IMG/VR virus record: IMGVR_UViG_3300027901_000038
Span: 1-22,897 of that record
Direction: 5' to 3' (one strand)
Length of the DNA stretch: 22,897 bases
Origin: a virus
Shown: positions 4,917 through 16,295 of the stretch, piece by piece
How positions within the stretch are numbered: the stretch's first letter is position 1
Layout: every line of letters begins with the position of its first letter
Notes under the pieces: generated by a model
Databases searched by the model: none
What the model was told of the DNA's origin: nothing
The model's input: only the letters and a program-made list of their open reading frames with translations
Position numbers and translations under genes: made by a program

Positions 4917-5090
4917 TTAATCGGATGGGAGTTGGTTCGCCGCTTCGTCAATGGCATCAATGATGTCGTGGGCCAAGTCGTGCATCCCACGCACGCGCAG
5001 GGCATCCACAATAAGCCAAGCCTGATCAATGGGGATGCGGATGTTTACGTAAATAGGTTCTTCGTTAAGTTCTTCTGGTAAATCTGCCAT
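4917..5090 (-). CDS. Small acidic hypothetical protein, 57 aa
   Basis: ATG at 5090 gives a protein beginning MADLPEELNEEPIYVNIRIP and ending AANQLPSD. It is an acidic, mixed alpha/beta protein with no Cys motif or membrane helix. Its start overlaps the 3' end of the upstream HTH gene by 26 bases, with an AAGGCGGA-like SD. Its stop lies 3 bases before the terminator hairpin, so it is the last gene of the leftward operon. Two short strand/helix elements (IYVNIRIPIDQAWLIVDAL) could make a small dimer. The function is unknown. Confidence 0.65.
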   Translation of the reverse strand: MADLPEELNEEPIYVNIRIPIDQAWLIVDALRVRGMHDLAHDIIDAIDEAANQLPSD

Positions 5091-5289
5091 GTTCGTTCCG
5101 CCTTACTTTTTGAGTAATAAGCTCAGTGAATCCGAATTTCTTTCTTATGGCTTTATCTTTGGGTTCGTATCCCTCATTGGCAATGCGCCAAGCCATTGAT
5201 TTTGATGATCCATAATGGTCAGCCACTTTTCGCCAACTACCCAATTCGGCGTATAAATTCCAAACTCGATCAACTACTTGTTTTTCCAT
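5065..5289 (-). CDS. Small helix-turn-helix DNA-binding protein, 74 aa
   Basis: The core GSWRKVADHYGSSKSMAWRI (residues ~17-36) reads as a helix-turn-helix: a 'W.kvA..yg.s....wri' pattern followed by a basic tail (KDKAIRKKFG, KVRRNEHGRFTRR). This is the type of small phage or host regulator in which the recognition helix carries Ser/Lys/Trp/Arg. ATG 5289 is preceded by AAAGAG lying in the loop of a short palindrome (5290-5306), which could allow autoregulation. It overlaps the downstream 57-aa gene. The target is unknown. Confidence 0.65.
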   Translation of the reverse strand: MEKQVVDRVWNLYAELGSWRKVADHYGSSKSMAWRIANEGYEPKDKAIRKKFGFTELITQKVRRNEHGRFTRRT

Positions 5290-5306
5290 CGTTACTCTTT
5301 GTAACG
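5290..5306. promoter_or_regulatory. Palindrome over the ribosome-binding site of the small HTH gene
   Basis: CGTTAC-TCTTT-GTAACG is a perfect 6-bp dyad with a 5-base spacer ending one base before the ATG at 5289. On the coding strand the loop reads AAAGA, the likely SD core. It could be an operator for the HTH protein or an mRNA hairpin presenting the SD. Confidence 0.35.
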
Positions 5307-5327
5307 CTAAGCCTGACGCATTATAGC

Positions 5328-5609
5328 CTATTCTATGAGCATCGCGCCAATGGATTTAAGGGCATCCTCAGGGCTGTAAACAATTCCCGGAAAACAACCG
5401 TGTAGCATCATATCTTTCACGACCTTGGCCTGGTTTTTATTTAGCCCCGATCCTTCGGTTTTGACCTCGAGGACATAGAAAGTTCCCCGGAAGGCTACAA
5501 GTAGATCCAAGGGCCATTTGACGCGATAAACTAAGGCGCCCGCAGCCTCGAGTGCCTCGATGATCTCGGGCTCGTTGGCATCCGTCCTCGCATCACGCCG
5601 GGTGACCAT
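5328..5609 (-). CDS. VRR-NUC / PD-(D/E)XK-type nuclease, 93 aa
   Basis: The compact protein carries the PD-(D/E)XK core: Glu14 in DANEPEII, Asp35 in WPLDLLV and Glu48-x-Lys50 in YVLEVK, followed by LNKNQAKVVKDM (Gln in the conserved helix). This matches small phage VRR-NUC or Holliday-junction-resolvase-like nucleases, which cut branched or flapped DNA in replication and recombination. Length is normal for the stand-alone phage form. ATG 5609 lies inside the upstream zinc-ribbon gene (17-base overlap), implying coupling. It is one of three nuclease-fold proteins in this operon. Confidence 0.75.
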   Translation of the reverse strand: MVTRRDARTDANEPEIIEALEAAGALVYRVKWPLDLLVAFRGTFYVLEVKTEGSGLNKNQAKVVKDMMLHGCFPGIVYSPEDALKSIGAMLIE

Positions 5610-5883
5610 TTTGCCTCAACAATAACAAATCGGTATCGCTCGGAATCTCGCACAGAGCCCAAAGGCCGAGGTAGAACACCCAGATCCTGCACAACCATTC
5701 GACCTCGCAATTTTCGCATTGTTTATGGTGGGTGCGTTCATATTGCAACAGCTCGGGATGCAATGCCGGTGCTTCGGGCTTTGGGTAACGCTCCGCACAC
5801 TTTCCACAAATGTACCGAGTTCTAATCATTTGATCCCCGCAGTTGGGACATGGTTTGTAGGCGGTGGGGTTATAGCCCATCAT
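5593..5883 (-). CDS. Zinc-ribbon hypothetical protein, 96 aa
   Basis: CPNC at residues 12-15 and CGKC at 26-29 form a treble-clef or ribbon-type zinc site. A second Cys set follows (CENC ~56-59 and Cys65), then a hydrophobic IWVFYLGLWAL segment that could be buried or membrane-associated. Tandem ATGs at 5883/5880 follow GAGGGG and overlap the upstream stop (ATGA). The function is unknown. Confidence 0.65.
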   Translation of the reverse strand: MMGYNPTAYKPCPNCGDQMIRTRYICGKCAERYPKPEAPALHPELLQYERTHHKQCENCEVEWLCRIWVFYLGLWALCEIPSDTDLLLLRQNGHPA

Positions 5884-6149
5884 TCACCCCTCAGTGTTTT
5901 GGCGTAAGTTAATAATAGAAGCTCATCTTTAGTTAATGCATGGAATCCCAAATGGTTATTCATCGTTCGGGCCATTCTTACCGCATCCTCAGCACTTAAT
6001 AAATCTGTGGCTTTCTTCAGTCTCTCGTAATCGTTGAGGCGGCGCAAAATCTCTCCTTCGTCCATCGGCCTTTCACATTCTCTACAATATGGCAGTTGAT
6101 GGGTTTCAATTCCATCCTCTGTAAGTATCCACTCATGCCTGTGTGTCAT
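5880..6149 (-). CDS. Hypothetical protein with Cys/His cluster, 89 aa
   Basis: I chose ATG 6149 (MTHRHEWILTEDG) because GAGGAG lies just upstream; a GTG at 6161 would place the SD inside the gene. The N-terminal part has HRHEW, H..LPYC and CRECE, a possible metal site. The rest is helical (MDEGEILRRLNDYERL; ALTKDELLLLTYAKTLRG). It overlaps both neighbours. No family is recognised. Confidence 0.6.
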   Translation of the reverse strand: MTHRHEWILTEDGIETHQLPYCRECERPMDEGEILRRLNDYERLKKATDLLSAEDAVRMARTMNNHLGFHALTKDELLLLTYAKTLRGE

Positions 6150-6366
6150 TTCTCTCCTCACAATATTTGCATCTCTTCAGCCGTTCATCCACGATCGGTG
6201 GGTCATAGCAATAAGCCCGGCCACAGATCGATACCCACTGGATCAGCTTGCCCTGCATCTTGAAGGGCTTGTCGATCTCACGGAAACGATGCTGGTACTT
6301 GCCTTCCTGACAGGCTTGCCAAACTATTTCGTTCGTTTCAACTTCAGCGGTGCTTGATCGATCCAT
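6133..6366 (-). CDS. Hypothetical Cys-rich protein, 77 aa
   Basis: Residues are arranged as WQAC, H26, SICGRAYC (C48, C53) and RCKYCEE (C66, C69), likely binding zinc. The start is uncertain: ATG 6366 has no clear SD, and the first 43 bases overlap the upstream gene. The C-terminal 17 bases overlap the start of the following gene. The family and target are unknown. Confidence 0.55.
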   Translation of the reverse strand: MDRSSTAEVETNEIVWQACQEGKYQHRFREIDKPFKMQGKLIQWVSICGRAYCYDPPIVDERLKRCKYCEERNDTQA

Positions 6367-6683
6367 AGCTGCACCATCGTTTCATCATATATCCGGTCCA
6401 TGCGTTCACGGAACCAGATCCTGAATTCTCTCGAATGACCGGCATTAGCGTGGAATAATCTGCAATTCAGCGAGCAGTTGTGTTTGTTATAAAAATAATC
6501 CTGTAGCTCATTGGGCAACTTCTGGAATACGTTTCTCGGAATGAGAACTTCATTGATTGCAAGCGGTCCTTTGCAGGTATGCCAAAGATAATCAACCCCT
6601 TCACAATCAAATTGATGCCCTCCAAAGCTGCCCTTGCGTCTTGGGTCGTTCAGGAGCAATAAGCGTAAATCATCGCGATTCAT
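6324..6683 (-). CDS. HNH-endonuclease-like protein, 119 aa
   Basis: The start is ATG 6683 (MNRDDLRLLL) with an AGAAGA SD rather than an upstream start inside the neighbour. The layout resembles phage HNH-like proteins: LWHTCKGP (His35), INEVLIP (Glu45), YNKHNCSLNC (Asn69, Cys70, Cys74), LFHANAGHS (His78, His83), then a helical RE-x(n)-R-Y-D segment and QLWIDQAPLK near the end. The HNH residues are not perfectly placed, so it may be a degenerate or structural zinc relative. Its first ten residues are identical to those of the upstream gene, in different codons. Confidence 0.5.
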   Translation of the reverse strand: MNRDDLRLLLLNDPRRKGSFGGHQFDCEGVDYLWHTCKGPLAINEVLIPRNVFQKLPNELQDYFYNKHNCSLNCRLFHANAGHSREFRIWFRERMDRIYDETMVQLWIDQAPLKLKRTK

Positions 6684-7065
6684 ATTCTTCTTGTATTTTT
6701 TCAGAACGCCAAACATCTCGGCAATCTGTACATAACCATTCGTTTAGTTCTTCAATCCAATGTGTTGCGGTATTTCCACAATCACAAAGTTTATTTCGTA
6801 ATCTTTCAATTGCCTCAAATACAAGTGCTTCTTCAATTGTTCCTAACAATAAATCTGCCCATATTTCATCCAAAAGTTTTTTAGCTAATTCATCGTTGTT
6901 TAATTGAGATACTTGTTGATGAAAATTTGTGAGCTTTTCTAACACATCCATATTATTACTCCCAGCAAAAATCATTGTGGCTAACATCCATTGCAAATCG
7001 CTGATTTTCTCGCAAGATGTAATCTTTAGTTCTTCTAGCAGTAACCGAAGATCGTCACGGTTCAC
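6670..7065 (-). CDS. Hypothetical protein with C-terminal zinc ribbon, 131 aa
   Basis: The start is GTG 7065, overlapping the upstream MmcB-like gene by 11 bases. Residues 1-90 are helical and Leu-rich (MNRDDLRLLLEELKI, QVSQLNNDELAKKLLDEIW). The C-terminal CDCG...CTDC forms a four-Cys ribbon about 20 residues across. The protein shares its N-terminal decapeptide with the downstream HNH-like gene and overlaps it by 14 bases. The region is distinctly AT-rich compared with neighbours. The function is unknown. Confidence 0.6.
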   Translation of the reverse strand: MNRDDLRLLLEELKITSCEKISDLQWMLATMIFAGSNNMDVLEKLTNFHQQVSQLNNDELAKKLLDEIWADLLLGTIEEALVFEAIERLRNKLCDCGNTATHWIEELNEWLCTDCRDVWRSEKIQEEYESR

Positions 7066-7816
7066 TAAATTTATCTTTCAAATAATCCAGTTCATCGGCG
7101 AGTGCTATTAAACGCATTCCAATATCTCGAATATCGGGTGCAAATCGAATGCGCTTCATAATGCCACCATCCATAATTGTCTTTACCGCTTCGCCAATTT
7201 TGTTTGCATTCCATGTTAAGATTTGCACACCACTGGCTTCTTGAAATTCGCTGATTGCGCGTTCCAGCTCATCTACATGTCGCTTTGCTTCTAAGCTAAT
7301 CCTTTCGCCTTCTTTTTTTCCGATTTCAAACCCACGTTGATACTCAGCATCTTGTGCTTCGCGGGATAAAGACCTATCTACTAATGCTCTGACAAATGCC
7401 GCGGCTATGGACCTTGACATCTCAGCTCGCTTATCAGAATGTAAAGATAATGGTTTTCTTCGGGCTCGCAATCCTTCGCCATCTGGTATATACAATCCCC
7501 ATTTTGGCGGCAATATTTTAAGATCAACAATACCCTTTGGAGCGACAATTGAGAATAAATCCAGGTGCGGTTCAAACTCAGCGAATTTTCGCGTATCTTG
7601 TAACTCCCTCCGCAAATCTCCCCTCGATGTCTTGATCTCTAGGCCATGCAATCTCAATCCTTTGCTTGGCCATGTATCAAATACAATGGCATCAAGTTTG
7701 CGGCTGTATCCAAATCCGGCGCCATTATGCACTTGAACTGCGGTCACATACCGTGGCTGTCTGACCGTCATCGGCCAACGCACCATAATTGCTTTTATCA
7801 AATCAGCTTCGTTCAT
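7055..7816 (-). CDS. MmcB-like PD-(D/E)XK DNA repair nuclease, 253 aa
   Basis: ATG 7816 (MNEADLIKAI) follows GGAAAGAAG; longer readings run into the next gene. The conserved part lies at residues ~25-112: GFGYSRKLDAIVFDTWPSKG, then HGLEIKTSRGDLRREL, then LFSIVAPKGIV and LPPKWGLYI. Asp42 with Glu60-x-Lys62 fits the PD-(D/E)XK fold, and the motif series matches the MmcB-related family linked to DNA repair in bacteria and common in phages. Residues ~140-200 form a basic coiled coil. It probably acts on phage or host DNA during replication or recombination; substrate unknown. Confidence 0.7.
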   Translation of the reverse strand: MNEADLIKAIMVRWPMTVRQPRYVTAVQVHNGAGFGYSRKLDAIVFDTWPSKGLRLHGLEIKTSRGDLRRELQDTRKFAEFEPHLDLFSIVAPKGIVDLKILPPKWGLYIPDGEGLRARRKPLSLHSDKRAEMSRSIAAAFVRALVDRSLSREAQDAEYQRGFEIGKKEGERISLEAKRHVDELERAISEFQEASGVQILTWNANKIGEAVKTIMDGGIMKRIRFAPDIRDIGMRLIALADELDYLKDKFSEP

Positions 7817-7899
7817 CTTCTTTCCTTCACCAGCAAATAAACCACCAGCACGATCGGGAACAGGAAGCAGGCGACGGTGATCCATTCGTCTAGGGCCAT
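7813..7899 (-). CDS. Tiny single-pass membrane protein, 28 aa
   Basis: MALDEWITVACFLFPIVLVV is followed by a basic end (KERR). This is one hydrophobic helix with acidic N and basic C terminus. It overlaps the upstream HTH gene by 10 bases and the downstream nuclease start by 4 (ATGA), filling the only gap between them. A candidate SD (AGAAGG) lies 10 bases upstream. The exact nesting supports a real gene, though it is very short. Confidence 0.5.
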   Translation of the reverse strand: MALDEWITVACFLFPIVLVVYLLVKERR

Positions 7900-8138
7900 C
7901 CTTCAAACGCCTTCTGGAAAATCTTGCCGGCGATCCTTGAGGCCTCCAGATTTCCATTCCACCACAGGCTCAGCATCGTCGGCGCGATAACGTTCCGCTG
8001 TCCGCCCTCCCATGCTTGCACCGTATACCATGACACATTCAGCAACTCGGCGAATTCCGCAATGCTCATTCCCAGTTCCTGCCTGCGGATCCGCTTGAGC
8101 TCCTGGCGGGCGCGGTGTTTAATATGGGATTTCGTCAT
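7890..8138 (-). CDS. XRE/Cro-type helix-turn-helix regulator, 82 aa
   Basis: The start is ATG 8138 (MTKSHIKHRAR). The HTH is at residues ~22-55: LGMSIAEFAELLNVSWYTVQ, then AWEGGQRN, the typical XRE helix 2-turn-helix 3 and the W-E-x-G signature. A basic N-terminal helix (KHRARQELKRIRRQ) precedes it. It likely binds DNA in the phage early region. No operator could be assigned. Its C terminus overlaps the 28-aa membrane gene. Confidence 0.75.
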   Translation of the reverse strand: MTKSHIKHRARQELKRIRRQELGMSIAEFAELLNVSWYTVQAWEGGQRNVIAPTMLSLWWNGNLEASRIAGKIFQKAFEGWP

Positions 8139-8373
8139 CGTCTTTTGTGATTTGAGTGGAAACAATCCAGCCATCACCATTGCACTTCCAACATTTTATT
8201 TGGTCGGGTATTGGCATACCTTCCATTTCTGGAGCACAGGCGTCGGTAGCCATGTCTTTGGTGACATATCTGGTTTGAACAACATAACCCTGCCCTTCAC
8301 AGTCGGGGCAAACAACTTGAACCCCAAAATACTTATCTTCATCAAATCCCTGTTCATGGTAGATGGTGGTCAT
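8119..8373 (-). CDS. DnaJ-type zinc-finger protein, 84 aa
   Basis: Two CxxCxGxG motifs are visible: CPDCEGQG (~residues 22-29) and CWKCNGDG (~61-68), as in the DnaJ Cys-rich zinc domain. There is no J domain. ATG 8373 has GGAGGAG 7 bases upstream and overlaps the DnaA-like gene's stop (ATGA). Stand-alone DnaJ-type zinc fingers are common in phages and can act in protein-protein or RNA contacts. The role is unknown. Confidence 0.7.
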   Translation of the reverse strand: MTTIYHEQGFDEDKYFGVQVVCPDCEGQGYVVQTRYVTKDMATDACAPEMEGMPIPDQIKCWKCNGDGWIVSTQITKDDDEIPY

Positions 8374-8648
8374 CGCTTTGCTCCTCCACACACAAACTCC
8401 ACTTCAACCTGTTCGCCCAAAACGCCAACCAACGTCTTTTCCGCAATCGCCTTACCGCGATCTTCAAGCCAATCACGCTGGTCTTCGGACTCACAAATCA
8501 CCGTGAACTTCCCGTCTTTACGTCCACCGTATTCTGTGGGTTGCCAGAACTTATTAAACTCACCTGAAGCTTTATACATGGTTCTTTTGTAATAGGTGTT
8601 TCTTATTGTGATTAGTGTTTGTATCCAGGGTGTTTGATCTAAGTTCAT
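8370..8648 (-). CDS. Stand-alone DnaA domain I-like protein, 92 aa
   Basis: The pattern runs W8..TLITIRNTYYKRTMYKASGE.., then KFTVICESEDQRDWLEDR, KAIAEKTLVGVLGEQ and VEVEFV. This follows the order of DnaA domain I (helix, helix, strand 'v.a.n.f..dWle.ry...i...l....G..v.v.f'). In bacteria that domain binds the DnaB helicase and DiaA-type regulators. Domains II-IV (AAA+, DNA binding) are absent, so it cannot open an origin itself. ATG 8648 has AAGGA 9 bases upstream. With no phage helicase or primase in the window, recruiting or inhibiting host initiation factors is a reasonable inference. Confidence 0.6.
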   Translation of the reverse strand: MNLDQTPWIQTLITIRNTYYKRTMYKASGEFNKFWQPTEYGGRKDGKFTVICESEDQRDWLEDRGKAIAEKTLVGVLGEQVEVEFVCGGAKR

Positions 8649-8914
8649 GTTTTTAATTCCTTAGCGGTTTCATTTGGAAAATTAGGCAAACTTCCCCCCT
8701 AACCCCCATAGCAAGATAGGAAGATCAGGGGGGATGGTTTCACCCGGAGCCATTGAGGGTTCCTTCCCTGCGGCTTTGCTGCCCGTGGCGGGATTACCGC
8801 TACCCTACCCGCTGATCCTGACCGAAGTCAACCACGTCGCCCGGCTAATGCCTGCTTGACCAGTTTACTATGATTGCTGGCTCTTGTTGCGCGGTGCCAA
8901 ACCGCGAAATACTT
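8649..8914 (-). other. GC-rich, hairpin-rich intergenic region; candidate structured RNA
   Basis: This 266-base gap is the longest in the leftward operon and more GC-rich than its surroundings. Read leftward it holds a row of small stems: GCGGTxxACCGC-type hairpin at 8890-8906, a canonical cUUCGg tetraloop stem (TGAC-TTCG-GTCA, 8819-8830), a 6-bp stem at 8786-8802, smaller stems near 8771-8785 and 8756-8769, and C6T/AG6 arms at 8694-8700/8727-8733. A weak promoter-like pair (TTGACT, 18 bases, TAGGGT) starts near 8831. No convincing ORF was found. It matches no riboswitch consensus I know. Confidence 0.4.
8890..8906 (-). terminator. Hairpin after the nuclease-like gene
   Basis: A 6-bp perfect stem (CGCGGT/ACCGCG) with a 5-nt loop lies 8 bases after the stop at 8915. 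It lacks a U-tract, so it may be a pause or 3'-stabilising hairpin rather than an intrinsic terminator. Confidence 0.35.
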
Positions 8915-9409
8915 CTATTCAATTATTGGACATAAAGATAATTCAACTTCTTCTTTTAGTTGTTTCTTGGGGACTAAAAACATAGGTGTTTGTGAACCTT
9001 TTAATTCATGTCTTTTGGGTTTAGGCTTTATCGGAGTTATTTCTTTGGCATAGTTCCAAAAACTACCATTATCTGTAATCCACCACAGTATTACTGGAAC
9101 ACCGATTTCTGACAATCTTTTACATGCGATCAAAGATGCTTGTTCAATGGTTAATGTAGGATAATTGGAACCATTAGGTGCTGCTTTGATTTGAAGCAAA
9201 TGATTTCCTGATATTGGGGATGTAAGTTCGGCATCTGGAAAATGCTTGATTAAAGCTATATCATTATCATAATTAAAGCGCATATTTGATCGCACCCATT
9301 GAGGGATTGCCCTGAGCAATCTTATTGAATAGCCTTTGTCTAAGAACCACTGAAATACTAATCTTTCGGCTATTTCTGATGTTTTAAATCTATCGATTAC
9401 ATCTTCCAT
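8915..9409 (-). CDS. PD-(D/E)XK-like nuclease, possible restriction partner of the adjacent methyltransferase, 164 aa
   Basis: I chose ATG 9409 (MEDVIDRFKT); a GTG at 9439 would enlarge the overlap with the methyltransferase from 13 to 43 bases. The fold looks like PD-(D/E)XK: a conserved N-terminal Glu12 (SEIAERLVFQWFLDKGYSI), Pro58-Asp59, then Gln73-Ile-Lys75 after a 13-residue spacer, followed by a LTIEQASLIACKRL helix and a VPVILWWI strand. The usual Glu/Asp of E-x-K is Gln here, a variant known in some families. The protein is AT-rich like its neighbour. Cutting activity and specificity are not established; a non-restriction nuclease is also possible. Confidence 0.5.
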   Translation of the reverse strand: MEDVIDRFKTSEIAERLVFQWFLDKGYSIRLLRAIPQWVRSNMRFNYDNDIALIKHFPDAELTSPISGNHLLQIKAAPNGSNYPTLTIEQASLIACKRLSEIGVPVILWWITDNGSFWNYAKEITPIKPKPKRHELKGSQTPMFLVPKKQLKEEVELSLCPIIE

Positions 9410-10494
9410 ATCATTAAATCTCTTGCTAGATAAAGCCACTTTTTATTGGCCTTGGCTTTAGAAACATATTCACCACCGTGTTGTTGTGTTGAATAAGGCA
9501 CTTGTATTCTATGCCACGGTGGACCAATGCGGTAAATGATTTCTGCAGCGTGATCAATAATGCCCCAGTTTTCTTGGGTTGGGCCGATAATGAGTGCTGT
9601 ATATTCTGTTTTCTCTTGACATTCAATTATTATCTTTGTGAGCTCATCATGAAAACGATCAAGTGACATATTAGCAAGATTGGTTTCATGATCGTTATAT
9701 TCGCCTTTTTTTTGTTTCCAATATGGGGGATCAAGAAAGATCATTTTTGCTTTTTTGAAGTTTGGTAATCCTTGTTTGACAATATCTCTTTTTTGAATAT
9801 CACTTCTGATCGGATCAATATCATAGGCAAGACATTCTCGACTGCCAAAATCTAAATCATCACTATTACAGACGTCTATTGTGACACCTCCGCCCGCAAA
9901 TAGATCTACAACAAGATCGCCTGGGTCAGTATAGTAATAATTGAGGTTCATTAAAACTTGTGCTGGTATATTGCCGGGGTGTTCCATGCCAAAACGTTCA
10001 TCGCGAAACGCAAACCCCCAAACTTGATAGACTCTAAGCCAAGCCCTTCTGCTATCACCTGCTGCCCCATTAATCGCCTGTCTAAGTTCTCTGACAGACC
10101 ATTCTTTGCGTTCTGCTTTTTCCAACCACTTTTGTTGTTCTTCTGGTTCAAGCGCGGCTACTTGTTCGTGATGTGACCATTTCAAATTTATTCTACGTAG
10201 AACAAATTTAACATTTTCTGCGACCCACCTATATTTGTTTAAAGTTGAATATTCATAATCAGGAAAGGCCGATAAGAGTTGTGTTCCTTTATCGCCGTAT
10301 TGCGTTTCTATTTGACAAAGAGCATCGCCAATGTTCCATTGAACCGCGTCACCTATGTTGTGCATCCCATTAAAAAACGCCTGCCATTCTTCCCACTCGG
10401 GAACACGATCTAATATAAGTCCCGTGCGCGTTACAACGAAGGGACCAACTGATAGGGCCGGGATTATATTTTTGCGAGTGGCAAGTTCATTCAT
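9397..10494 (-). CDS. DNA amino-methyltransferase with N-terminal helical domain, 365 aa
   Basis: The start is ATG 10494 (MNELATRK), which has no clear SD; a GTG at 10515 is less likely. Residues ~1-145 form an N-terminal domain with a helical WSHHEQVAAL...WSVRELRQAI segment as in ParB-like or phage DNA-binding modules. The AdoMet fold follows: HPGNIPAQV and VVDLFAGGG (motif I, ~196-203), then IFLDPPYW (motif IV, Asp255-Pro-Pro-Tyr258). DPPY indicates N6-adenine (or N4-cytosine) methylation. Motif I precedes IV with no room for a large recognition domain between them. It may shield phage DNA or pair with the nuclease-like gene it overlaps. Confidence 0.8.
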   Translation of the reverse strand: MNELATRKNIIPALSVGPFVVTRTGLILDRVPEWEEWQAFFNGMHNIGDAVQWNIGDALCQIETQYGDKGTQLLSAFPDYEYSTLNKYRWVAENVKFVLRRINLKWSHHEQVAALEPEEQQKWLEKAERKEWSVRELRQAINGAAGDSRRAWLRVYQVWGFAFRDERFGMEHPGNIPAQVLMNLNYYYTDPGDLVVDLFAGGGVTIDVCNSDDLDFGSRECLAYDIDPIRSDIQKRDIVKQGLPNFKKAKMIFLDPPYWKQKKGEYNDHETNLANMSLDRFHDELTKIIIECQEKTEYTALIIGPTQENWGIIDHAAEIIYRIGPPWHRIQVPYSTQQHGGEYVSKAKANKKWLYLARDLMIWKM

Positions 10495-10599
10495 GATTAA
10501 ATAGCTGATGCCCACTATTTAGGTGGTCGCGGTGGACACGAAGCACGACTAGGAGCTTTGGGCCGCGCCCACCTAAGTAGTAGGCACCATGATTAATAG
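10492..10599. repeat. Insertion-like palindrome flanked by a direct repeat at the methyltransferase start
   Basis: Inverted arms of 23 bases at 10510-10532 and 10563-10585 match at 20 of 23 positions around a 30-base centre. They are bracketed by a direct repeat: CATGATTAAATAG at 10492-10504 and CATGATTAATAG at 10588-10599. The left copy contains the methyltransferase start codon (complement), so the leader context appears twice. This looks like a small palindromic insertion with a target duplication, or a duplicated regulatory leader. Confidence 0.6.
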
Positions 10600-10627
10600 T
10601 CAAAGTCGCGCTTGTGTCCATATCAAG

Positions 10628-10656
10628 ACTCTAGCACATTCTCAATCTTAGTGCAA
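10628..10656 (-). promoter_or_regulatory. Candidate sigma70 promoter for the methyltransferase-nuclease pair
   Basis: Reading leftward: TTGCAC (10651-10656), a 17-base spacer, then TAGAGT (10628-10633) preceded by TGC, an extended -10. Transcription would begin near 10621 and run through the palindrome at 10510-10585 before the start codon, giving a ~125-nt leader. Confidence 0.45.
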
Positions 10657-10686
10657 GTGGGACCGTGGCTGATTGCCGGGATGGTG

Positions 10687-11064
10687 TCAAGGTCGGTCAT
10701 TAAGAATATCTAATGCCGATTTGGGCCAATAAATATAAGCAGGATCCTCTTCCCATTCTGCGGGCAAATCCTCTTCCATAATGTAGCAATCCTGACGAAG
10801 TCCATCCATCTCTAATTCTGGTGTAGCCCAGATGGAAGCAAGATAAACATAAGTTTCGTCTTGAGGAATAGGCTTTCCATCTCGATATATTTCGCCGCCT
10901 GTACAGTCCCAATCGCCCGCCAAGCCTGCTGAAGCAGTGAAAGGTTTATTGTCTTTTATTAGTTTGGCAGCCTTATTCCAATCAAAAACCATGAGCGGAT
11001 CTCCTGCTATTCTTGCAGCTTCACCTCTCATAAATGCTGACATATTTCTAGTCCATATATCCAT
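10687..11064 (-). CDS. Hypothetical acidic protein, 125 aa
   Basis: ATG 11064 has AAGGAG 6 bases upstream. There are no membrane helices. Aromatic and acidic blocks recur (GDWDCTGGEIYRDG, YVYLASIWATPELEMDG, EEDLPAEWEEDPAYIYWP). Two Cys only, so no zinc site. An 11-codon ORF and a palindrome sit directly upstream. It lies between small hypothetical genes and the methyltransferase promoter. The function is unknown. Confidence 0.65.
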   Translation of the reverse strand: MDIWTRNMSAFMRGEAARIAGDPLMVFDWNKAAKLIKDNKPFTASAGLAGDWDCTGGEIYRDGKPIPQDETYVYLASIWATPELEMDGLRQDCYIMEEDLPAEWEEDPAYIYWPKSALDILNDRP

Positions 11065-11074
11065 GTCACTCTCC

Positions 11075-11110
11075 TTAGATAATAGCTAGGGAGTTGGCCT
11101 CACACGACAT
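11075..11110 (-). CDS. Candidate 11-codon leader minigene
   Basis: ATG at 11110 follows AAAGGAG/GGAGAG and encodes MSCEANSLAII. It stops at TAA 11075-11077, which runs into the SD of the 125-aa gene (TAAGGAG). It lies inside the palindrome at 11089-11148. It may couple ribosome delivery to the next gene or be a regulatory leader. Very short ORFs arise often by chance. Confidence 0.3.
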   Translation of the reverse strand: MSCEANSLAII

Positions 11111-11148
11111 CTCTCCAGGGCTCCTTTCGTTTGGATTGACCAACTCCC
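11089..11148. repeat. Inverted repeat enclosing the leader minigene start
   Basis: GGGAGTTGG (11089-11097) and CCAACTCCC (11140-11148) form a perfect 9-bp dyad around a 42-base loop. On the minus-strand transcript the loop contains the AAAGGAG SD and ATG of the 11-codon ORF. It could be an mRNA structure controlling access to the 125-aa gene. Confidence 0.45.
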
Positions 11149-11149
11149 T

Positions 11150-11419
11150 TCAACAAATCTCAAATAAATGCCAAATCAGTTGGCCGTCATATTGTTGAAA
11201 AGTACTTATATAATCTTTTTTTGATAAATCAGTAATAATGTGGCCCGTTCCTTTGATTTGAAATGTTCGATATTCTGGAGGATTTCCTGCAATAACTAAC
11301 GCCCAGAGCACAGGATGACCAAATTGCATTTGCACATCCAATATTTCTGCGCCCTCAGGCATTTGGATCTGGAACTGATCTTGGATTGGTATTTCAAACT
11401 TCCAAATAGTTTTATACAT
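11150..11419 (-). CDS. Conserved phage hypothetical protein, 89 aa (DUF7352-like)
   Basis: The sequence KTIWKFEIPIQDQFQIQMPE, GAEILDVQMQFGHPVLWALV, GTGHII and IWHLFEI fits a small family widespread in phages and some bacteria: a short beta protein with no known role. ATG 11419 has AAGGAGGAG just upstream. Length is usual for the family. The family number is from memory. Confidence 0.65.
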   Translation of the reverse strand: MYKTIWKFEIPIQDQFQIQMPEGAEILDVQMQFGHPVLWALVIAGNPPEYRTFQIKGTGHIITDLSKKDYISTFQQYDGQLIWHLFEIC

Positions 11420-11497
11420 AACTCCTCCTTGTGAAGGGGCCAGCCATCCGTCAAGCCTGTACTTGTAGGGGGAATGGCCTCAGCGGGTGCTGAGTTG

Positions 11498-11614
11498 TCA
11501 CGTGAATTGGCCAGCCAACAATCCAATAAAAATCCATAATGGCAAACTGAACAAAATGCCATATAAACATCCTCGTGCAGGAGCAAGCGGGCAGTCTTCA
11601 TTCAAGTGGTTCAT
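11498..11614 (-). CDS. Small single-pass membrane protein, 38 aa
   Basis: ATG 11614 (MNHLNEDCPLAPARG) has AGGGGAG 8 bases upstream; longer in-frame readings run into the next gene. One hydrophobic helix (GCLYGILFSLPLWIFIGLLAG) ends in QFT. Such tiny membrane proteins are frequent in phage early regions; no function is known. A CTCAGC/GCTGAG hairpin (11479-11494) follows the stop. Confidence 0.6.
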   Translation of the reverse strand: MNHLNEDCPLAPARGCLYGILFSLPLWIFIGLLAGQFT

Positions 11615-11651
11615 CTCAATAACTCCCCTGTTATGATATGTGGTGTTAACT

Positions 11652-11921
11652 TCACCATTCTGTTGAACAAAGAAAGCCTCGGCCATTATGCTCAACCCAT
11701 TCTGCCGCGGTTTTCTCATCAATTATCCAATCCTCTTCCGGCAAATACTGATCACGAATTATCTTGATCACTTCATCATCAGGAATCTGTCGCCATTCGG
11801 TGTCTTTTTCAAAATCAATCTCGCTTAAAATACTGTGTTCTTCAACTAACAATTTTTTTAGATCGTCCAACGATTCGGCAATCCAAGTATCATAATCATC
11901 AGTAAAACACGATAAAGCCAT
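11652..11921 (-). CDS. Acidic hypothetical protein, 89 aa
   Basis: ATG 11921 follows AAAGGAGGAACG, a strong SD. It is strongly acidic (SLDDLKKLLVEEHSILSEID, PDDEVIKIIRDQYLPEEDW) and ends KTAAEWVEHNGRGFLCSTEW. No zinc or membrane motif is seen. An acidic DNA-mimic or inhibitor role is conceivable but unsupported. Confidence 0.65.
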   Translation of the reverse strand: MALSCFTDDYDTWIAESLDDLKKLLVEEHSILSEIDFEKDTEWRQIPDDEVIKIIRDQYLPEEDWIIDEKTAAEWVEHNGRGFLCSTEW

Positions 11922-11952
11922 CGTTCCTCCTTTTTGGTTTCGATAATTGACT

Positions 11953-12774
11953 TTATCCTAAGTATTCTTCAAACGGAACCTTCCACAACCAGTTTTGCCT
12001 ACTCCAATAGCGCATATAATTCTTTAGTTCTTGGTCGGTCCATTTCCCATTTACATATGAATTCTTTTGTAATGAATCAATGGGTTGGTATCGCATTGGA
12101 TTCGGCCATGCTTTCAAGCCCTTTATCGTTTCTAGTCGGTATCGGGCATCTTCAGGATCATCGTTATATCCAATCAAAACATAAACTCTAATATGCCATG
12201 TTGAAAAGCCCGATGCGGTCAAAATCTCAAAGGCTTTCATAAATTGTTTTTCTAGCCTTGAATGGTCCCATGCCAATCTAATACACTTAGTATCTAATTC
12301 TCGTAACCGATCAGCATGATGAATGGTAAGAAGTCTAGCATCTAAACCCTGATTAAAATCAATTCCTTTTAATGGCTTGAGTTTATCAATAACTGAATCA
12401 AAGTGATTGAAACTTGTTGCTAATAGATTATTGTCACAAATGATTGGTCGAATCGGCCAATTCTCTAATTCATAAAGATTACCCTCTATGCTAGGAACAA
12501 TACAAAATGAGCAATTACGAATACAACCACGACTCGTGAAAGTCGCTTGTGGATTATGTAGTTTAATTGCATCCCTATAAAAATCTCCGACTTCTGCAAC
12601 ATCATCAAAGAAGGTGGGATCATAAGATACAGCGGGACCACCCACCATTACCTTATAACCTAACGACTTATACCAAACACATTTCTGATATGCTTCTTGT
12701 TTTTGCCAAGAGAACACAACAGAAATATATGCCGTTTCGTCCTCGATCCACTCAACTAATCCCGATTTCCACAT
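11953..12774 (-). CDS. Radical SAM enzyme, 273 aa
   Basis: The [4Fe-4S]-binding motif is explicit: TSRGCIRNCSFCIVP, with Cys84, Cys88, Cys91 in Cx3Cx2C spacing. Before it, residues ~1-75 form an alpha/beta segment with VMVGGPAVSYDP, like the vestigial cobalamin-binding region of B12-type radical SAM proteins. After it come GIDFNQGLDARLL, IRLAWDH and VYVLIGYNDDPEDA strands of the partial barrel. Substrate unknown. The start is uncertain: ATG 12774 (MWKSGLVEW) avoids overlap, while ATG 12819 would add 15 residues inside the upstream gene. The block is AT-rich. Nothing around it is an obvious substrate or partner. Confidence 0.8.
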   Translation of the reverse strand: MWKSGLVEWIEDETAYISVVFSWQKQEAYQKCVWYKSLGYKVMVGGPAVSYDPTFFDDVAEVGDFYRDAIKLHNPQATFTSRGCIRNCSFCIVPSIEGNLYELENWPIRPIICDNNLLATSFNHFDSVIDKLKPLKGIDFNQGLDARLLTIHHADRLRELDTKCIRLAWDHSRLEKQFMKAFEILTASGFSTWHIRVYVLIGYNDDPEDARYRLETIKGLKAWPNPMRYQPIDSLQKNSYVNGKWTDQELKNYMRYWSRQNWLWKVPFEEYLG

Positions 12775-12796
12775 TTTATGCTTTCGATAACGTAAA

Positions 12797-13030
12797 TTAT
12801 CGTAACAGCTCCTTCGCATCGTCGGACATATTATTGAGTGCATTGAATAATTCAATCCAGGCCGTCATTTCAACTTTATTCAATCCAACTATCTCATAGA
12901 CTTCCCGTGCTTTTTTCGCCCATTTAGCCAATTCCGCCAACTCCCTCAACACACGGGCCATGCGTTTTCGCTGAATCAATAATTCTATTATTGGCGAATC
13001 AGATGCTTCCTCAATCTCATCCAGCCACAT
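12797..13030 (-). CDS. Helical coiled-coil-like protein, 77 aa
   Basis: ATG 13030, the second of two tandem ATGs, lies 6 bases after AGGAG, which is encoded in the C-terminal tail of the upstream gene. The protein is wholly helical (LIQRKRMARVLRELAELAKW, AWIELFNALNNMSDDAKELL). It may be a diverged member of the tandem coiled-coil group upstream. The function is unknown. Confidence 0.6.
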   Translation of the reverse strand: MWLDEIEEASDSPIIELLIQRKRMARVLRELAELAKWAKKAREVYEIVGLNKVEMTAWIELFNALNNMSDDAKELLR

Positions 13031-13226
13031 CATCTACTCCTGCCTTGAGAGCTTTCCCAAGCTCACAAACCAAATCCGGATCTACACTATCATAAACCAA
13101 CCAGGCAATTCTCTCTATCTCTAGCAACCTTTCTTTCTCGGCTTTAAGTCGTGCTATACGCCGTTTAGCATCACACAACTCGACATCGCCAACAAAGCCA
13201 CTGCTCGATGCTTGTATCTTACTCAT
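13017..13226 (-). CDS. Coiled-coil paralogue B, 69 aa (own start inside the fused frame)
   Basis: ATG 13226 (MSKIQASSSGF) sits 6 bases after an AGGAG and has the same local context as the neighbouring starts. The protein has a RRIARLKAEKERLLEIERIA coiled coil and ends LGKALKAGVDDVAG, matching the end of the upstream paralogue. The SD of the next gene lies within its KAG codons. The function is unknown. Confidence 0.5.
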   Translation of the reverse strand: MSKIQASSSGFVGDVELCDAKRRIARLKAEKERLLEIERIAWLVYDSVDPDLVCELGKALKAGVDDVAG

Positions 13227-13475
13227 CGTCATCTCCTGCTTTGAGGGCGTCAAGTATTCTTCTGCTTCTTTTCTTTCCTGTGCTAACCATTCTTCGTATT
13301 GCTCATCTTTCATAGATGAATTTTCATACATCGCTTTATTTTCTGCCCACCGCTTGAATTTTGACCATCCTTCCCTCAACCTCTCATTCTCGGCTTCGAG
13401 TTGGGCAACATATTCCCTCGCAAAATCTGGATCGGCCAACCTTTCCCATTTCCATTGTTCAAGTGTTTTAGCCAT
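13017..13475 (-). CDS. Fused reading frame of two tandem coiled-coil paralogues (probable frame disruption)
   Basis: ATG 13475 (MAKTLEQWKWERL) has GCAGGAG 6 bases upstream, embedded in the end of the upstream gene. Literally read, the frame runs 152 residues to 13017. Residues 1-75 contain the VAQLEAENERLREGW coiled coil. Near 13255-13262 the frame enters LTPSKQEMTMSK. Adding a single A in GAAGAATACTT would instead give EEILDALKAGDDDE and stop at 13219-13221, the family's usual ALKAG tail. So I see gene A (13219-13475) with a one-base loss fusing it to gene B (13017-13226). The cause may be a sequencing error or a real mutation. Confidence 0.55.
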   Translation of the reverse strand: MAKTLEQWKWERLADPDFAREYVAQLEAENERLREGWSKFKRWAENKAMYENSSMKDEQYEEWLAQERKEAEEYLTPSKQEMTMSKIQASSSGFVGDVELCDAKRRIARLKAEKERLLEIERIAWLVYDSVDPDLVCELGKALKAGVDDVAG

Positions 13476-13773
13476 CACAATCTCCTGCTTTGAGGGCATC
13501 AGCCAATGCTAATCCAATCGTCTCGGGAATATGCCATTTATCACCCTCGCCCTCAACGAGTATGTATTTCAAGGTATATCCATCTTCTTTCTTTTCAAAC
13601 AGCCAATTGCACACCTTCTCAACTTTCCGCAACCTCTCAATCTCAGCTTCGAGTTGGGCAACTTCATCTGTTACATCTATTTCTTGATCTGGCAATGGGT
13701 CGGCTGATGTCCCGCCCAAAAGGGGATAACGTAAGATCACTTTACAGTATTCATTTCGCTCACTCAGTTTCAT
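13468..13773 (-). CDS. Coiled-coil paralogue C, 101 aa
   Basis: ATG 13773 (MKLSERNEYCKV) lies 7 bases after GAGGAG, encoded in the upstream gene's Glu-Glu. It carries VAQLEAEIERLRKVEKVCNW as coiled coil, then a GYTLKYILVEGEGDKWHIPE beta segment, and ends LADALKAGDCDG. It shares its coiled coil and ALKAG tail with A and B downstream. This is likely a tandem duplication family; role unknown. Confidence 0.65.
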   Translation of the reverse strand: MKLSERNEYCKVILRYPLLGGTSADPLPDQEIDVTDEVAQLEAEIERLRKVEKVCNWLFEKKEDGYTLKYILVEGEGDKWHIPETIGLALADALKAGDCDG

Positions 13774-14044
13774 CGTCGGTCTCCTCGCCCAACGCTTCCT
13801 GGCACAGATAGCACCACTTCTCACCCTTCACCAGCTTGTCATATCGCCCACACAGTTCACAATTATCGAACTCGGGCTTTTCATAGAACATTCGGATCAT
13901 CTCGTTTGTGAGCTCCTCTTGATCGGTCATCAGATGTCTCCTCATAAAATGCAATGCGGTAGGGTTCCATATCAGAGCCCATCTCACACGGCCTTCATTG
14001 CGGATCTCGGCCAGGGACACAATCGGCTTACTTTGCAGGGTCAT
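13760..14044 (-). CDS. Small zinc-ribbon protein, 94 aa as read; start or frame uncertain
   Basis: The C-terminal part has CELC...CYLC, a four-Cys zinc site, and the acidic tail GEETDDETE. ATG 14044 overlaps the LuxR-like gene by 17 bases but has a weak SD. An internal ATG at 13930 (MTDQEELTNEM) has GAGGAG 7 bases upstream and would give 56 aa. Between them, one added base near 14000 would switch to a frame reading RVRMGSDMEPYRIAFYEE. So two small genes, the first damaged, may be present here. Confidence 0.5.
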   Translation of the reverse strand: MTLQSKPIVSLAEIRNEGRVRWALIWNPTALHFMRRHLMTDQEELTNEMIRMFYEKPEFDNCELCGRYDKLVKGEKWCYLCQEALGEETDDETE

Positions 14045-14303
14045 CTAAGATCGCCTTGAGCTCTTTCAAGAACACCTTGCGGACCAGTTCGCTTTTTGAA
14101 CAACCAACAGCTCGGCACACATTGGTCATATAAAGGATAACGGTCCCGTGCGGGATACTGGTTTCTTCTGCGATCTCGATATTGGAGTAGCCCTGGATTG
14201 CGAGCCTACCCACAATCCTTTCGTTCTTAGAAAGCTGCGGGTAGGCCCGGAATGGGTCGTTGAGTAGCTGGTTGATCTCAAGCACTTTGTTGATTGGTTT
14301 CAT
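14028..14303 (-). CDS. LuxR/GerE-type helix-turn-helix regulator, 91 aa
   Basis: ATG 14303 is 7 bases after GGAG. Residues ~24-70 match the LuxR C-terminal HTH: LSKNERIVGRLAIQGYSNIE, IAEETSIPHGTVILYMTNVC and KSELVRKVF (helices 2-4). No receiver or ligand-binding domain is present, as in small phage sigma region 4/LuxR-like regulators. It could control early or late gene expression. It overlaps both neighbours. Confidence 0.75.
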   Translation of the reverse strand: MKPINKVLEINQLLNDPFRAYPQLSKNERIVGRLAIQGYSNIEIAEETSIPHGTVILYMTNVCRAVGCSKSELVRKVFLKELKAILDDPAK

Positions 14304-14496
14304 GCTGTTTCTCCATATATCTCATTGCCTCAAATAAAAGAAAGTCTAGCTCGACCACCATTCTATACGGAACATTTGGTGGGCTTATTGGTGGATCAAT
14401 TAATGCGTCCCGACACTCCTTGAGTTCTGGCTCCCACTTATCGAGTGTTTCTTTTATTGTTTTGATGAACTTCTCGATCTTATCTGATTGAGACAT
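14278..14496 (-). CDS. Hypothetical helical protein, 72 aa
   Basis: ATG 14496 (MSQSDKIEKFIKTIKETLDK) follows AGAGGG by 8 bases; upstream starts would lie within the neighbour. It has two helices separated by a Pro-rich turn (PPISPPNVPYR), then LDFLLFEAMRYMEKQHE. No Cys motif or membrane segment. The function is unknown. Confidence 0.6.
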   Translation of the reverse strand: MSQSDKIEKFIKTIKETLDKWEPELKECRDALIDPPISPPNVPYRMVVELDFLLFEAMRYMEKQHETNQQSA

Positions 14497-14851
14497 AAGG
14501 TTTACCCTCTTTACGGAACTCCAGAAGCTCAGGATGTGCTTTGGCATAACCATCAAGGGCTTTATTGTCCCACGTGATTCGGCCATTATTGAAGACAGCC
14601 TTAAGAAATTCACCATCCACCGTTTCGCCAAGCTCAATAGTCATATCCTTGATCTTTTGTTCAAGTGCGGTGGTTTTTGAAGATGCGATTTCGATCTTAT
14701 CTCCAAACTCATCTCGGATAGATTGAACTTTTTGTTTGACCTCATTTGGCATAACCTCATCGATCATTCGCTCTTGCTCTTGTTGGACAAGGACAAGTTC
14801 AGCTCGGATCTCTGCCAAATCATCAAGAAGTTTTGTTATTTCTTTTTTCAT
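14480..14851 (-). CDS. Coiled-coil phage protein, possibly Gam-like, 123 aa
   Basis: ATG 14851 has AGGAG 7 bases upstream and overlaps the upstream stop (ATGA). Residues 1-70 form a long helix hairpin (ITKLLDDLAEIRAELVLVQQ, ALEQKIKDMTIELG). The conserved end reads FNNGRITWDNKALDGYAKAH, then PELLEFRKEGKPYVSIR. That end recurs in many phage early operons next to recombination genes. A host-nuclease inhibitor (Gam-like) role is a guess. Confidence 0.6.
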   Translation of the reverse strand: MKKEITKLLDDLAEIRAELVLVQQEQERMIDEVMPNEVKQKVQSIRDEFGDKIEIASSKTTALEQKIKDMTIELGETVDGEFLKAVFNNGRITWDNKALDGYAKAHPELLEFRKEGKPYVSIR

Positions 14852-15849
14852 GACTGTTCTCCTAACATGTCAATCGCCTTGGCGATGGCCTCTTCATTAT
14901 CCCCCCGCTCCCATGCTGCATTGGCGACCTTCGCGCGCTCATCCGATGCAATGTCAGGAAACTCCTCTTTCAACTGCGATCGGAGCACCACGTAACCGAT
15001 CGCCTCGGTCATGTCCAGATCGCCATAGGGCACGTCAATGAACGGCGATTGATTGAGGATGTTCACGGCATGAGGTCGGGCCTGCACCAGTTGGAGATCC
15101 ATGATCTTGTCGATGATTTTTTGTTCCCATTGGTTCTTCAATCTAGGAGCAGATATTGACGTTTCTTTTTCTTGTTTTGGTTGTTCGGGCGTGATCACTG
15201 TTCCAATTTCCATGTCTTCTAAATCTTGCGTGAAGAATTCTGAAGCATTGACAGCGATCAAGGTTGCAGCTATCAGAGATCGTTTCTGTGCCATCTTATC
15301 GATGGTGTTTACAAGGTCTTGCGGATTTTCGTTCTTGATCATGCCTCGATCTTGACCTTCGATCTCTTCAGCACCGTCCGACCATTTTTTGCCGCACCCG
15401 CCCTTTTTATGCCAACACAGCCAACCACCACCGTATTCTTCCTTGCCTTTGATGATGGCTTCCTGTCCACATTCGGGACATACTGGATTGGCGGTCCTGA
15501 AGCGGTATTTCTTTTCCCATGAGTTGCAGGAACCTACGCCATGACCAACAAGCATTTCGCCACGATACAGTAAGCATCCATATTGAAAATAGAAGAATGG
15601 TTCTCCGTGATGATTGTCGCCGTTCCAATCAAGATTTTTTTCTAAGACCTCAAACTTTGGTGAAAGGCCAAAGAAGGTGGTCAGTTTTTCGGCTCCCGGT
15701 TTTAGCAATGTAGGCTTATCTGTTCCGGGGATGATGCCATAATCAGTTCCTTCAACCATGATCCCTTTGACAAATTCCACCAAAGTATCACGGCGATTGA
15801 CTGCCAGTTGAATGTCCATAACTGGCATGATCGCAAATTCATCAGTCAT
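14848..15849 (-). CDS. Conserved phage protein with zinc ribbon, possible single-strand annealing/recombination role, 333 aa
   Basis: ATG 15849 has AAGGAG 7 bases upstream. The N-terminal part has MVEGTDYGIIPGTDKPTLLK and PGAEKLTTFFGL; a strand-rich core (PFFYFQYGCLLYRGEML, GVGSCNSWEKKYRF) follows. A zinc ribbon is inserted at ~125-155 (CPEC...CWHKKGGC). Then comes TIDKMAQKRSLIAATLIAVN with FFTQDLEDM. The 'K-M-A-Q-K-R-S/A' helix after a DSRM-like core recalls Rad52/Sak/DdrA annealing proteins. A variable C-terminal helical region ends the protein. Annealase function is inference; the family itself is commonly left hypothetical. Confidence 0.6.
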   Translation of the reverse strand: MTDEFAIMPVMDIQLAVNRRDTLVEFVKGIMVEGTDYGIIPGTDKPTLLKPGAEKLTTFFGLSPKFEVLEKNLDWNGDNHHGEPFFYFQYGCLLYRGEMLVGHGVGSCNSWEKKYRFRTANPVCPECGQEAIIKGKEEYGGGWLCWHKKGGCGKKWSDGAEEIEGQDRGMIKNENPQDLVNTIDKMAQKRSLIAATLIAVNASEFFTQDLEDMEIGTVITPEQPKQEKETSISAPRLKNQWEQKIIDKIMDLQLVQARPHAVNILNQSPFIDVPYGDLDMTEAIGYVVLRSQLKEEFPDIASDERAKVANAAWERGDNEEAIAKAIDMLGEQS

Positions 15850-16093
15850 CGTTATTCTCCTTTATATTTTCCCAATTTTTCTCGGTCAAAATATATGTAA
15901 ATACATCAAACCGCGGAACAAGATGGATGGCAACTAATTTCTCGCATCCTCCACTTTCGTGATCACATGTTGTTAAATGTGTATCTGAATAACTCTTGAG
16001 CGGTAAATATCTGTGTTGTTCAAGACCGCAATGCGGGCAAGTAAACTTTATACGCACCTGCGGAACATAGTCATTTTCGGATGTGTTAGACAT
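15842..16093 (-). CDS. Zinc-binding hypothetical protein, 83 aa
   Basis: ATG 16093 (MSNTSENDYVPQV) follows GGAGGG; longer in-frame readings lie in the upstream gene. The zinc site is FTCPHCGLEQ with TTCDHESGGCEKL. A beta segment (AIHLVPRFDVFTYILTEK) closes the protein. It is the second gene after the leftward promoter. The function is unknown. Confidence 0.65.
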   Translation of the reverse strand: MSNTSENDYVPQVRIKFTCPHCGLEQHRYLPLKSYSDTHLTTCDHESGGCEKLVAIHLVPRFDVFTYILTEKNWENIKENNDD

Positions 16094-16094
16094 C

Positions 16095-16295
16095 TCAACC
16101 CTCCACAAACACATAATCGGCAAGATCCTCGATCCCGTAATCTTTGCCGACTTGATATAAAACTGCTCTGAGCTGGTTGTTCTCCGTCTGCAGATCATCG
16201 TTCGCCTTGGTTAGTTTGCGGATCTTTGCCAAGAGCGGAGCCCGGTAGCTTTCGAGCAGTTCTTCCTGATTTTCGCGTAATTGTTGGAATGTCAT
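16095..16295 (-). CDS. First early gene: coiled-coil protein, 66 aa
   Basis: ATG 16295 follows GAGGAG by 9 bases, and the predicted start of transcription is only ~16 bases upstream. The protein is almost all coiled coil (LRENQEELLESYRAPLLAKI, LTKANDDLQTENNQLRAVLY) with a short acidic end. As first product of the consensus early promoter it may be abundant. The function is unknown; a leucine-zipper-like dimer is likely. Confidence 0.65.
   Translation of the reverse strand: MTFQQLRENQEELLESYRAPLLAKIRKLTKANDDLQTENNQLRAVLYQVGKDYGIEDLADYVFVEG

Follow-up and report, generated by a model that had tools for sequence, protein, structure and literature searches.

The window analysed here is a 22,897-nucleotide stretch of viral DNA (IMG/VR record IMGVR_UViG_3300027901_000038), whose early gene region includes a small gene encoding a protein that resembles a single domain of the bacterial initiator DnaA. 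The features of this region are as follows:

4917..16295, minus strand: early gene region, between the lysis and terminase genes (ORFs, Pfam/PHROGs, Walker A scan)
5328-5609, early region: endonuclease-type protein (Pfam/PHROGs)
7055-7816, early region: DNA-repair-type protein (Pfam/PHROGs)
7890..8180, minus strand: XRE-type helix-turn-helix protein, 96 aa (PHROGs and Pfam HTH matches)
8119..8373, minus strand: following gene, a DnaJ-type CxxCxGxG zinc-finger protein of 84 aa (Pfam PF00684, E=1.2e-5, below that family's cut-off)
8370..8648, minus strand: solo DnaA domain I-like protein, 92 aa (ORF list, profile score, AlphaFold, Foldseek)
8657..8662, minus strand: AAGGAA ribosome-binding site of the domain I gene, 8 nt 5' of the ATG at 8648-8646
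9397-10515, early region: N6/N4 DNA methyltransferase (Pfam/PHROGs)

The minus-strand ORF at 8370-8648 is a genuine gene, because it alone among the six frames over this segment has a codon score above zero (+22.8 bits for its 92 codons), it has the AAGGAA site, and its stop overlaps the start of the following gene as ATGA. A plus-strand antisense ORF at 7924-8592 was ruled out as a true gene by its codon score of -39. The GGAGGAG site of the following gene sits within the 3' end of the domain I gene and, judging by this internal site and the ATGA overlap, the zinc-finger gene is probably translationally coupled to it. The 92-aa protein recurs unchanged in two more assemblies of this phage in IMG/VR, 12,578 and 39,849 bp long (the latter hereafter the sister contig).

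An earlier sequence-only reading had described this ORF as a domain I-like protein without the AAA+ and DNA-binding domains of DnaA, and both its location and its motif are as described: the protein contains DWLEDR...GVLGEQVEVEFV. With only 92 aa and no second domain found by Pfam, it has neither the AAA+ domain III and helix-turn-helix domain IV of a DnaA protein nor the DNA-binding domain that an initiator carries in the same chain.

The protein is homologous to DnaA domain I. We rely for this on a profile of domain I from 50 bacterial DnaAs, their loci found with Pfam DnaA_N independently of the query: the phage protein scores 29.0 bits, and the best of 2,000 query shuffles scores 10.2. A 65-sequence profile gave 32.3 bits (best shuffle 10.3, best other phage ORF 4.3), and hhalign returned probabilities of 96.7% and 96.9%, the latter over residues 8-87. 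When phmmer was run against PDB sequences, the top match was B. subtilis DnaA domain I (4tps; E=0.005, residues 30-86). Weaker matches came from NCBIfam DnaA (E=0.12) and from the PHROGs "replication initiation protein" family, at the C-terminus of that profile (E=0.33, residues 46-83). A pattern scan of one genome per species (84,980 species), together with tblastn using the query, yielded 22 loci, and all those translated were bacterial DnaA domain I; however, these candidates were pre-selected by a shared RDWLE-type pattern, which is why the unbiased 50-sequence profile is preferred. The HMM comparison with DnaA_N that had been proposed as a check thus depends on the profile: the fuller one matches, but the stock Pfam profile (PF11638, curated cut-off 24.6 bits) does not, either with the query (hmmscan, E up to 10) or in the search of the sister contig.

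Structure prediction points the same way. A single-sequence AlphaFold model, made without an alignment, has low confidence (pLDDT 55) and follows the order H-H-E-E-H-E, which is that of domain I. Among its top Foldseek matches are DnaA domain I of B. subtilis (E=3.5e-5), E. coli, M. genitalium and H. pylori, as well as E. coli tau. With 59 DnaA sequences aligned, AlphaFold gave a pLDDT of 86.7 and a pTM of 0.76, and Foldseek matched this model to 4tps (TM 0.77/0.83, E=1.6e-6), with DciA helicase-loader domains next (E=0.019); because its alignment was DnaA-guided, the second model is supportive, not independent. The elements of the 92-aa protein in the model are:

Residues 3-21: alpha1
Residues 25-35: alpha2
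Residues 39-44: beta1
Residues 47-52: beta2
Residues 55-77: alpha3
Residues 82-87: beta3

The predicted fold is therefore the alpha1-alpha2-beta1-beta2-alpha3-beta3 of DnaA domain I, and the strand and helix order first read from the letters is borne out by the unaided topology, its four DnaA matches and the fit of the aligned model to 4tps. The best viral structure matches of the protein are replication initiators.

The presence of both DciA and tau among the fold matches raises the question of whether the protein is instead a helicase or polymerase adaptor of the DciA (DUF721) or tau domain V type. DciA is a small helicase adaptor with a KH-like fold, in which respect the phage protein resembles it, and a resemblance between its core domain and the N-terminus of DnaA is known (PMC9825169). 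Even so, we consider this extremely unlikely: DnaA domain I is clearly the better structural match in the DnaA-guided model (by the two E-values above) and the only plausible match by sequence. No sequence similarity to DciA was found, including no Pfam family match, and the phage protein is without DciA's DnaB-binding extensions.

Compared with DnaA domain I (PF11638; structures 4tps, 2e0g, 2jmp and 2wp0), the phage protein shares the fold, the helix-1 tryptophan and the helix-3 DWLExR, with approximately 14-32% identity over the domain. It differs in having no domains II-IV, in falling below Pfam detection, in an aspartate at the Phe46 position and in a seven-residue insertion after helix 1. 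The positions concerned are:

8625..8627, minus strand: Trp8 codon, equivalent to E. coli DnaA Trp6; kept (Trp in 50/50 bacterial DnaAs in the alignment)
8559..8579, minus strand: seven-residue insertion, residues 24-30 (MYKASGE), between alpha1 and alpha2; in none of the DnaA domain I sequences compared
8481..8483, minus strand: Asp56 codon, at the position of E. coli Phe46 and B. subtilis Phe49; Phe lost (Phe in 47/50 bacterial DnaAs)

These positions matter for what the domain can bind. In E. coli DnaA, Trp6 serves domain I self-association and Phe46 is a contact for both DnaB and DiaA, while the B. subtilis counterpart, Phe49, contacts SirA (PMC5448010). Phe46 is also Phe in most of the mobile-element DnaA_N copies that we compared. 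In the phage protein, Asn44 is replaced by Ser, and on the helix-1 face E. coli Leu5 corresponds to Pro7 and the Leu33 position holds a polar or charged residue. The E. coli-type pair of DnaB contacts, Glu21 and Phe46, is not present, Phe46 being Asp56; in an ungapped reading, Glu30 immediately precedes Phe31, and Glu21 is itself not conserved in DnaAs, where the position is mostly Ser. The core, i.e., Trp60 and DWLExR, is retained. On this alignment, both canonical faces of domain I have diverged around the retained core, as seen in one protein sequence (three identical copies). The premise that domain I is the part that binds DnaB helicase is thus weakened for this protein, because the E. 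coli contact residue has been replaced, and the loss of Phe46 speaks against its simply reproducing the contact between DnaA and DnaB of E. coli.

Loss of the key phenylalanine, along with the single known lineage, might also suggest a decaying remnant of a larger initiator gene, without present function. We regard this as very unlikely, since the frame is intact, has a coding signal, its own ribosome site and an overlap with the next gene, and since the protein is identical in three assemblies and keeps the core DWLExR.

The same residues bear on a second explanation, in which the protein is an antagonist of host replication. It would pair with host DnaA domain I via the helix-1 face, or titrate a DnaA partner, so that DnaA complexes could not load helicase, host initiation would stop, and the machinery would be freed for the phage. 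Keeping the helix-1 Trp and losing the helicase-contact Phe is the pattern expected of a dominant negative, and there is a precedent in YfdR, a CPS-53 prophage protein that inhibits initiation and has DnaA domain I as its binding partner (PMC4776307). If the phage protein is an antagonist, it would, like YfdR, be a phage-derived actor at DnaA domain I; however, YfdR is a ligand of the domain, whereas the phage protein is a copy of it (PMC4776307). Against an antagonist, the other helix-1 dimer residues are not kept (Leu5 and Leu33, as above), and Trp6, which does not vary among DnaAs, may be there for structural reasons. We hold this explanation to be possible but somewhat doubtful.

With tblastn the protein matched none of 50,697 phage records and 72,556 plasmid records, IMG/VR yielded only two further contigs (both of the same phage), a single-sequence search of genome contigs gave no homologue, and no second copy was present in terminase relatives (80 loci, many of them short). 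Five of the six "phage" DnaA_N matches examined are full-length DnaA, and such full-length copies are probably bacterial contamination. The Rep protein of Brevibacillus phage Jenst has an HTH_36 domain and a C-terminal DnaA_N, and the domain is also C-terminal in seven initiator-like proteins encoded on plasmids of Bacillus, Paenibacillus, Niallia, Terribacillus and Rubrobacter, some of which bear the annotation TrfA or "replication initiation protein". A Leptolinea plasmid protein has DnaA_N at its N-terminus. In a terminase-related phage (L126:1-1092), an initiator-like protein has a DnaD-like (DnaB_2) domain and then a weak DnaA_N, and its gene adjoins ParA-type and HTH genes. The Jenst Rep and the Bacillus, Paenibacillus and Rubrobacter plasmid Reps are like the phage protein in carrying domain I on a mobile element outside DnaA; in them, however, an N-terminal replication-protein part is fused ahead of DnaA_N and the Phe is mostly retained, whereas the phage protein stands alone.

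Solo DnaA_N frames were rare in samples of approximately 60 and 130 genomes. Two further solo copies, each in a phage or phage-like mobile element, are:

L097:2986-3372, on a 36-kb viral contig (IMGVR_UViG_2784132153_000003): 128 aa, Pfam E=4.8e-16; a gene for an IrrE/ImmA-type protease lies upstream, and a phage integrase gene adjoins it
L189:2852-3310, in a Bacillota genome (G186:C6): 152 aa, Pfam E=3.2e-12; located behind genes for an XRE repressor and an ImmA-like protein, approximately 1 kb from cas2 and cas1-like genes

An XRE/ImmA neighbourhood is common to both. Like the phage protein, each is a single DnaA_N; they differ from it in scoring above the Pfam cut-off, in being longer, in keeping Phe46 and in lying beside XRE/ImmA (and, in one case, integrase) genes. 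The description of a phage protein consisting only of domain I accordingly holds in that 92 aa contain a single domain, but the protein is not unique, since there are two other solo copies in mobile elements. Searches of open-licence papers turned up no account of a DnaA domain I standing alone in a phage.

The setting of these two copies suggests a third explanation: an accessory protein of a lysogeny, regulatory or recombination module, with the DnaA-like fold put to a new use, the binding of a different protein or of single-stranded nucleic acid. Both copies adjoin XRE repressor/ImmA-type genes (one also an integrase gene) and not replication genes, and the phage domain I gene lies two genes from the XRE-type HTH. 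Domain I has a KH-like fold, and that of E. coli binds ssDNA weakly (PMC5448010). However, Phe46 is retained in the other solo copies, which are not close relatives, neither an integrase nor an ImmA gene was recognised in the vicinity of 8370-8648, and replication initiation is the setting in which the domain is chiefly known. Such an accessory role is therefore unlikely in our view.

Pfam and PHROGs searches of nearly all ORFs of the early region recognised no helicase, primase, polymerase or loader, although divergent loaders without a Walker A motif, like lambda P, would escape this; at that sensitivity, the earlier statement that the window has no phage helicase, primase or polymerase holds. 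Further matches in the early region were to HTH proteins and a radical SAM protein, and the genes at 14848-15849 and 14480-14851 look like a recombination pair, by eye rather than by profile. A Walker A scan of the 39.8-kb sister contig found the terminase to be the only gene with both the motif and a nucleotide-binding role; of the three remaining matches, one fell within a late structural gene and the others within ORFs that run antisense to other genes. The sister contig seems to end inside late or cargo genes, so a few genes may be missing. Neither an initiator nor an origin could be identified in this phage. A DnaA-box origin was ruled out, with matches to TTATNCACA at the level of chance (18 versus 19.4 expected).

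Upstream of the domain I gene is a 266-bp non-coding gap (8649-8914) with pairable G-rich and C-rich runs, the stability of which is not above that of shuffles; it may hold an origin. A structured RNA in the gap was ruled out (fold z=0.26, no Rfam match). Beyond it, 8915-9439 encodes a 174-aa protein with no family match and a nuclease-like LQIKAA stretch, which overlaps the end of the methyltransferase gene; the two are possibly a restriction-modification-like pair. For the domain I protein itself, a link to a defence system was ruled out, as PADLOC gives no match.

Other observations concern the late genes. At the end of the sister contig (L005:17764-19682), a Peripla_BP_4 sugar-binding periplasmic protein and a glycosidase-like protein lie beside phage late genes, and these may be host-derived cargo, a provirus edge or a chimera. 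A late-region protein of 1,219 aa (L005:11512-15171) has dozens of short repeats around "KDLxLxWDI", also found in a shorter protein (L005:9739-11175). Over its first 4 kb, the window shows 13 mismatches to the sister contig and one gap of approximately 25 bases, which splits a late gene (window 1060-2718) into two frames in the sister contig (L005:1310-2993); this discrepancy may be an assembly error or real variation.

Since the phage, in whose early operon the gene lies, has no recognisable helicase or loader, the domain I protein probably plugs into, or interferes with, the host's replication-start machinery. Recruiting the host replisome or blocking host initiation, the two functions first suggested for it, is a reasonable prediction, because the domain ends phage and plasmid initiators and because of that same lack of a helicase or loader. 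We favour the first, i.e., a replication adaptor linking the host's replication-start machinery to phage DNA, and tentatively put its probability at approximately 0.42. The adaptor role is suggested by phage and plasmid initiators, in which the domain and the replication protein are joined in one chain. As an adaptor, the solo domain would be a protein-protein interaction module paired with a separate phage DNA-binding protein, for which the 96-aa XRE-type HTH protein may be one candidate. The module would attach host DnaB helicase, its loader or DnaA itself to phage DNA, as this domain presumably does in phage and plasmid initiators, where it is fused to their DNA-binding part. With Asp in place of the canonical helicase-contact Phe, the contact would have to use a changed surface or a different host partner. 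That Asp counts against an adaptor, as do the lack of a DNA-binding part in the protein, the lack of an identified phage initiator or origin, and DnaA boxes that are not enriched.

What we describe is a known module in solo form, not a new kind of system, and the points of note are the solo form itself, the altered contact surfaces and the recurrence of solo copies in mobile elements. Many phages of approximately 40 kb encode no replicative helicase and must capture that of the host. A fuller account, possible but tentative, is that the phage took DnaA domain I alone and rewired its helicase-receiving surface (the Phe-to-Asp change and the insertion), so that it either brings a different replication protein of the host to phage DNA or poisons the assemblies that host DnaA forms, as one of a recurrent, undescribed group of solo domain I proteins in mobile elements. 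If an adaptor or inhibitor role is true, a solo DnaA domain I would be a minimal helicase-capture adaptor or a minimal inhibitor of host initiation, and the domain I interaction module would circulate on its own among mobile elements. At 92 aa, the protein would also offer a small system for asking which domain I surfaces matter in helicase delivery.
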